A stretch of DNA of 64,000 nucleotides from NCBI GenBank assembly GCA_903883965.1, contig CAISCU010000018.1:1-64000 (forward strand), read 5' to 3'. Within the stretch, counting starts at the first letter, position 1. The number at the start of each line of letters is the position of its first letter. Both the position numbers and the translations under genes were made by a program. The notes under the pieces were generated by a model. The model ran no database searches, was not told the DNA's origin, and was given only the letters and a program-made list of their open reading frames with translations. Below are positions 3 through 795 of the stretch, one piece after another. This DNA is from an uncultured Bacteroidota bacterium (lineage in GTDB: Bacteria; Bacteroidota; Bacteroidia; UKL13-3).

Positions 3-337
3 AAGCTGCAGGGTTTATGGTTTCACCATGATTCCCCTGGCCGCTTTTACAAGCTGCAGGGTTTATGAATTTCATTCATGATTCCCTTGGCTGCTTTGTC
101 AAGCTGCAGGGTTTATGAATTTCATTCATGATTCCCCTGGCTAAAGAAGTGGACCAATCCTGCGCTGCTAGTAAGCGGCAATTGGTGAAAATAAAATGTT
201 CGTGTAATTGGCAAGTTGAAGGGTTTATGGCTTCACTATGATTTCCCTGGCCGCTTTGACAAGCTGCAGGGTTTATGAATTTCATTCATGATTCCCTGGC
301 TAAAGAAGTGGACCAATCCTGCGCTGCTGACTCAGCG
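3..337. repeat. Tandem hairpin repeats, about 48-50 bp, next to ssrA
   Basis: Five related units start at 3, 51, 101, 213 and 261. Each begins AAGCTGCAGGG (213 is degenerate, AAGTTGAAGGG), passes through a small hairpin and ends near CCCTGGC. The outer stem is CAGGG/CCCTG. The inner stem varies: ATGGT-TTC-ACCAT in unit 1 and ATGAAT-TTC-ATTCAT in units 2, 3 and 5, so both arms change together. Units 3 and 5 carry an identical tail (142-169 and 301-328) containing GAAGTGGACCAATCC. The array may continue left of the window. There are no unique spacers and no cas genes, so it is not CRISPR. Its left-to-right order of short blocks matches the ssrA 3' end. No protein function is supported; short reading frames through it look incidental. 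Confidence 0.8.
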
Positions 338-398
338 CCGTTTATTGACTGCGCAAAAAAACAAGCGAGCTTGCTTTTTGTGCTTCATCAATAAACGG
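338..398 (-). terminator. Long inverted repeat downstream of ssrA, probable terminator
   Basis: A perfect 11-bp outer stem, CCGTTTATTGA (338-348) with TCAATAAACGG (388-398), encloses a second imperfect stem formed by GCAAAAAAACAAGC and GCTTGCTTTTTGTGC (about 352-383). It lies 34 bases beyond the ssrA 3' end in the direction of ssrA transcription, where a transcription terminator would be expected. It has no clean terminal T-run on the minus strand, so it could instead be a processing stem for the tmRNA precursor or a cruciform boundary of the neighbouring repeat array. Confidence 0.5.
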
Positions 399-431
399 TG
401 ACAGTCTTGGTCCAACAGCATTGGTCATCTG

Positions 432-795
432 TGGAGCTGCAGGGAGTTGAACCCTGGTCCGGAAGTGGATTGGTCGAGCTTTCTACATGCTTAGTGAAGC
501 ATTGGTTTCAAACGGAGCAGGCTGCTTCTCTTACCAACCCCGTTCTAAGAAACCTGTTTACTTTAACAAGCCGGTTTCCCACCTGCTAAAGACCCTGTTT
601 GTTGACGGTTCTATTGGTTGCACAACAAGACAAATGCAACCGAACCGAAGGCCGGCTTAATCTTCCTGATTAAGCAGCCATAGCGAAGTTAGACTCGCCA
701 ATTAAAGTTTTTGAGATTGAGATTAAAGTGCCAATACATCCAATGCACTGCATGCTTACACGCCGCTGCTCACCCCGTCAATACCGGTCAGCCCC
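432..795 (-). ncRNA. ssrA: Transfer-messenger RNA (tmRNA)
   Basis: tmRNA rescues ribosomes stalled on broken mRNAs and tags the nascent peptide for proteolysis. The minus strand begins GGGGCTGACCGGTATTGACG at 795, the standard tmRNA 5' end. It finishes with ACTAAGCATGTAGAAAGC, a T-arm CAGGG-TTCAACT-CCCTG and CAGCTCCA at 432, whose last stem pairs with the 5' GGGGCTG. CCA is not encoded (CAG follows), so it must be added later. The tag reading frame runs from 699 down to 670: GGC GAG TCT AAC TTC GCT ATG GCT GCT TAA, giving GESNFAMAA. That fits the Bacteroidota GExNxAxAA pattern but ends MAA rather than the usual LAA. The length is 364 nt. Boundaries rest on stem pairing, so an error of a base or two is possible. 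Confidence 0.95.

Follow-up and report, generated by a model that had tools for sequence, protein, structure and literature searches.

Gene-less tandem repeats beside the ssrA gene of an uncultured Bacteroidota bacterium: probable pseudo-copies of the ssrA 3' end related to small tRNA and tmRNA 3'-end mobile elements

Positions 1-329 of the window, i.e. the whole 64,000-nucleotide stretch of DNA that was analyzed from an uncultured bacterium of a freshwater Bacteroidota lineage, form a tandem array of five hairpin units (starts at 3, 51, 101, 213 and 261) together with two longer tails. The units repeat the blocks of the ssrA (tmRNA) 3' end with order and orientation as in ssrA and with the T-loop exchanged for a hairpin. 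They are read, with moderate confidence, as gene-less tandem pseudo-copies of the ssrA 3' end, most likely diverged and non-autonomous, and related to small mobile elements found at tRNA and tmRNA 3' ends across Bacteroidota. The origin from the ssrA 3' end that was put forward in the original prediction is supported by the same order and orientation of blocks, by a location only beside ssrA, and by further ssrA genes and tRNA genes that show a like architecture. The features of the locus are as follows:

3-41, minus strand: pseudo-T-arm unit 1, short form (repeat family); the array runs past the contig end onto contig C55
51-91, minus strand: pseudo-T-arm unit 2, short form (repeat family)
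101-141, minus strand: pseudo-T-arm unit 3, the unit originally described, with long tail (alignment to the ssrA 3' end, 6 of 5,000 shuffles)
135-169, minus strand: tail copy 1 with ssrA block TCCACTTC, a 35-nt perfect repeat of 294-328 that aligns with ssrA TCCACTTC
213-251, minus strand: pseudo-T-arm unit 4, short form, diverged (repeat family)
261-300, minus strand: pseudo-T-arm unit 5, closest to ssrA, with long tail (repeat family)
294-328, minus strand: tail copy 2 with ssrA block TCCACTTC, a 35-nt perfect repeat of 135-169
262-430, minus strand: 169-bp ssrA-proximal unit, a terminator hairpin within a long palindrome followed by a T-arm-like ssrA 3'-end copy
336-403, no strand: long hairpin with T-run, inverted repeat 338-361/375-398, fold z -4.9
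431-795, minus strand: ssrA (tmRNA), by ARAGORN and Rfam RF00023, tag GESNFAMAA
431-459, minus strand: T-arm and 3' end of ssrA, part of that gene

The window units span 50-169 bp and are without genes. The 169-bp unit folds strongly (MFE -66.7, z -5.6) and its plan is common to two relatives of the same genus, G001 and G003; the hairpin at 336-403 within it is likely the ssrA terminator and could stop transcription both ways.

The sequence blocks on which the likeness was first noticed are present base for base: AGCTGCAGGG lies at 435-444 in ssrA and 102-111 in the repeat unit, CCCTGG at 452-457 and 135-140, and GAAGTGGA at 462-469 and 146-153. Alignment to the ssrA 3' end confirms that the unit at 101 carries the ssrA blocks in unchanged order with a hairpin replacing the T-loop. 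That unit is real but does not stand alone, being one of five hairpin units, two of which have the GAAGTGGA tail. Read in the ssrA sense the long unit is TCCACTTCTTTAGCCAGGG[GAATCATGAATGAAATTCATAAA]CCCTGCAGCTTG, its ssrA counterpart being TCCACTTCCGGACCAGGG[TTCAACT]CCCTGCAGCTCC. The octamers reported as exact reverse complements, GATTGGTC at 468-475 in ssrA and GACCAATC at 152-159 in the repeat, are found in the window, but the relation is not conserved in the G003 array, which has GACCAAGC although GATTGGTC persists in the ssrA of that genome; where the ssrA of G003 has GGAGGTGGA, the repeat has AGAAGTGGA. More likely, the octamer has its partner in a stem with CTTGGTCC at 406-413.

The likeness was measured by gap-tolerant local alignment against dinucleotide shuffles. 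Against the final 60 nt of ssrA, 6 of 5,000 shuffles reach the score of the long unit when the orientation is direct; when it is reversed, 632 of 5,000 do, which is not significant. Ranked by similarity to the long unit, the closest among 147 ssrA 3' ends are those from the family of the window; the ends of its own genus take ranks 4-6 (G002, G001 and G000, score 14.6) and 16 (G003, 12.6), against a median score of 6.8.

The array adjoins ssrA in three of the four members of the genus (G000, G001 and G003), was not detected beside ssrA in the fourth (G002), and is seen solely next to ssrA. An exact pattern scan of the contigs of the genome collection matched contigs of G001 and G003, a reservoir and a pond MAG, along with single matches in unrelated MAGs that are taken as chance (about 0.5 expected); the same scan of viral contigs gave no match. 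A DNA-similarity search found the repeat family nowhere else in the genome, nor in phages or plasmids, and an Rfam search of the array returned nothing above chance. The suggested look for further ssrA neighbors among repeats elsewhere came out in favor of the original prediction, the copies in G001 and G003 both adjoining ssrA; neither a wide occurrence of the repeats away from ssrA nor relatives whose ssrA lacks the blocks was encountered.

The window begins at a contig end, and the array goes on in contig C55 at positions 1-332. Since the start of contig C18 and contig C55 both end within the array and have a 32-base overlap, TCAAGCTGCAGGGTTTATGGTTTCACCATGAT, in common, the assembly probably broke and collapsed inside the array. 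Beyond the array on C55, where an island or integrase had been suspected to the left of the window, conserved DUF47 and PitA-like genes (the latter presumably PitA, to go by its sequence) are found and no island. The pond relative G003 has a HipA gene and a small helix-turn-helix-like ORF between its ssrA array and DUF47 (L028:10197-11860). In the sequence examined from G000 and G003, the interval from ssrA to the next genes is free of GIY-YIG genes.

Sister genera have elements of the same build. Adjoining ssrA in G006, G008, G012 and G067 is a gene-less, strongly palindromic element of the 150-170 bp class with a terminator, which closes with a displaced ssrA 3'-end copy beginning at the T-loop; these measure 157-167 bp, a size range matching that of the 169-bp ssrA-proximal unit, which follows the same plan of a terminator within a long palindrome and then a pseudo-T-arm. 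Two such elements stand in tandem in G067. One full and three shortened copies lie ~35 kb past ssrA in G020, and a member of this element family at tRNA-Ala of the same genome ends in the 3' end of tRNA-Ala. A reading of G020 and G062 as empty sites was dropped, a serine-recombinase island separating their ssrA from the gene-less elements; at both loci (L108 and L105) a large serine recombinase gene is directly 3' of ssrA, as in the ssrA islands of Dehalococcoides. Other repeats and palindromes at ssrA include a nearly perfect 45-base palindrome that makes up the first 45 bases after the gene in G041 (L100), and a tandem repeat including the ssrA terminator, next to ssrA at a contig end, in G013 (L078).

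The wider class to which the array is compared was found in a survey of Bacteroidota draft genomes and MAGs. A displaced ssrA 3' end (score at least 20, distance at most 700 nt) occurs in direct orientation at 14 of 140 ssrA loci and inverted at none, loci with good Rfam scores having been taken first outside the family of the window; the window and G001 have the two weakest scores among the 14. Two displaced copies stand in tandem 122 bp apart in G170. The displaced copy of another family retains both T-arm halves with two mini-hairpins between them, and across five sequences of this insert 13 of 13 pairs are kept in every row, three of them compensatory, with a covariation score reached by 1 of 500 shuffles. 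A covariance model (R1) of the pseudo-T-arm, its loop containing two mini-hairpins, was built from five related sequences of a single family, all of them ssrA ends, and run over 393 Bacteroidota genomes. Many of the weaker R1 matches are the T-arm of ssrA itself, and the counts that follow rest on 21 of the top-scoring loci not used for training. In 17 of these 21 a tRNA or tmRNA gene on the same strand precedes the match by 17-433 nt; in 16 the match agrees with the 3' end of its own target at no fewer than 13 of 17 positions, and in 9 a GIY-YIG ORF separates target gene and displaced copy; Pfam PF01541 was found in the three such ORFs tested. From TTC to the target 3' arm the insert measures 23 nt (22 plus the G of the loop) in 15 of 17 loci. 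Of 16 positions in the 3' arm, 15.0 agree with the arm's own target and 8.8 with other isotypes; of 8 in the left arm, 6.9 and 4.7 do, respectively. The matches to tRNA targets are independent of the model because it was trained on ssrA ends only. R1 units stand in tandem in several genomes, and gene-less canonical copies occur too.

The canonical element leaves its target gene intact. Next comes a GIY-YIG ORF of ~80 aa or, in its place, no more than a short spacer or a terminator, and the far end is a second, displaced T-arm and 3' end of the target with two mini-hairpins interrupting the T-loop. The class was undescribed in the open-licence papers on GIY-YIG with tRNA or tmRNA that a limited literature search covered. 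Small GIY-YIG ORFs are present just 3' of tRNA or tmRNA genes in many Bacteroidota (L261-L280), with the tRNA 3' end recurring past the ORF; at L273 the ATG of the ORF comes directly after the 3' end of tRNA-Ser. The family of the window itself has tandem GIY-YIG genes behind tRNA-Val (G070, L316) and tRNA-Met (G073, L319), where the anticodon region of the displaced tRNA copies, not the T-loop, appears altered, with another hairpin in its place. Most of the top-scoring GIY-YIG genes of this family have no tRNA in the locus, and G044 and G045 have a GIY-YIG gene downstream of ssrA, yet no displaced ssrA end was found there.

Like the canonical elements, the window array is directly 3' of its target gene, ssrA, in shared orientation, target-derived arms, TCCACTTC..CCAGGG and CCCTGCAGCT, flank its hairpin, and its units have multiplied in tandem. 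However, where the canonical insert has two 11-nt mini-hairpins of 4 bp each between TTC and GA, the window unit has a single 6-bp hairpin in a loop of 22-23 nt; where at least 13 of 17 positions of the canonical displaced 3' end agree with its target, the window shows about 10 contiguous matches and a score of 20/36; and the GIY-YIG ORF of the autonomous form is missing beside the array in G000 and G003. R1 matches the array weakly with filters off, unit 3 at 98-142 on the minus strand with 8.4 bits (E 0.06 in 1 kb) and unit 5 at 258-301 on the minus strand with 4.2 bits (E 0.88 in 1 kb). No canonical pseudo-T-arm was found in the loci examined from the family of the window. The array has neither a twin hairpin nor an exact displaced end nor a nuclease gene, and its R1 match is weak. 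It is therefore not filed as a member of the canonical class but described as working like that class and possibly descending from it, a descent that we infer in preference to a parallel origin.

The proposed mechanism begins with the nuclease, which would cut the unoccupied target in or near the tRNA loop. Repair from the occupied copy would then install the element, the target-derived ends serving as homology arms, and the hairpin may protect the element by spoiling the cut site within its own copy. Recombination among the repeated ends could multiply or shorten the unit.

The strongest competing explanation, although an unlikely one, is that the repeats are scars of islands; i.e. tyrosine or serine integrases inserted at the ssrA T-loop, the islands were lost, and the displaced 3' ends that stayed behind decayed and duplicated. 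In the family of the window ssrA is a hot spot for islands, as the original prediction had assumed: G046 and G060 have tyrosine integrases directly 3' of the gene, and G020 has the large serine recombinase directly next to it. The tandem ssrA islands of Dehalococcoides have 20-bp ssrA 3'-end copies at their boundaries and are inserted mid T-loop (PMC3146451). However, the right ends of islands in G063 and G017 are without the left T-arm half, and no mobile integrase is evident in the genome of the window, where the only two tyrosine recombinase matches have open frames of 308 and 302 aa and, judged by size, are housekeeping XerC/XerD-like. Of the two origins first proposed, decayed att-site duplications fit less well than a structured element grown out of the tmRNA T-arm, because the T-loop insert in unrelated families is a conserved, covarying structure and not the product of decay.

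That the array is a plain minisatellite, with hairpin-rich repeats arising by replication slippage near the ssrA terminator and a likeness to ssrA that is partly or wholly fortuitous, is improbable. Simple tandem arrays that do not clearly resemble ssrA do adjoin it in G049 and G053 (L091 and L089, a 137-bp repeat after ssrA, the two genomes differing by one unit), and the short unit by itself is only modestly like ssrA (93 of 5,000 shuffles). Against this, the long unit agrees with ssrA in order and orientation and on both sides of the loop, its agreement is best with ssrA of its own family, and the layout recurs independently. A regulatory RNA locus, whose transcripts would pair with tmRNA or mimic its T-arm, is very improbable and was set aside with its support confined to complementarity: plus-strand units are complementary to tmRNA across AGCTGCAGGG and one G003 hairpin (ATGGATCTTATTCAT) is fully paired only on the plus strand, via a G-T pair, but the promoter-like signal in the array is not above shuffles, there is no Rfam family, and the complementarity is lost where the G003 ssrA has changed. 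Integron attC sites, CRISPR and REP were set aside on anatomy alone.

The pseudo-copy reading can be extended, tentatively and with less confidence than is placed in the reading itself, to an apparently undescribed, phylum-wide set of minimal mobile elements that have one GIY-YIG gene or none, lie behind a tRNA or tmRNA gene, and are closed by a 3'-end copy tagged for self-protection with two covarying mini-hairpins; the window array would be a diverged gene-less branch. Integrase-driven islands classically insert at such 3' ends. If true, the extended reading would add a separate route by which DNA colonizes them through the same loop, nuclease-only and sometimes gene-less, and would account for tandem arrays and for breaks in assemblies next to tRNA and tmRNA genes.

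Among known systems, free-standing GIY-YIG homing endonucleases, e.g. those of T4-like phages, are small proteins whose genes adjoin the presumed target. The canonical elements likewise place a small GIY-YIG protein beside a presumed target, its cutting being putative, but unlike the homing endonucleases they add a target-matched, hairpin-bearing tRNA copy at the far end and have gene-less tandem derivatives. The ssrA-specific islands of Dehalococcoides are of kilobase size with cargo and a serine recombinase (PMC3146451). The window resembles these in its tandem units downstream of ssrA that are bounded by direct ssrA 3'-end copies; it differs in that the units are 50-170 bp and gene-less, with no recombinase gene or cargo between the repeats, and in that the copy, which is inexact only, keeps both T-arm halves around a hairpin. 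Islander islands in tRNA and tmRNA genes are integrase-driven (PMC4383910); the canonical elements share with them the intact target gene followed by a displaced 3'-end fragment, but carry a GIY-YIG ORF alone or nothing, and their fragment is broken at the T-loop. Finally, the elements are short, palindromic, gene-less and possibly moved in trans, as are MITEs and REP elements, from which they are distinguished by confinement to tRNA and tmRNA 3' ends and by target-matched ends, the window type occurring at one locus only.
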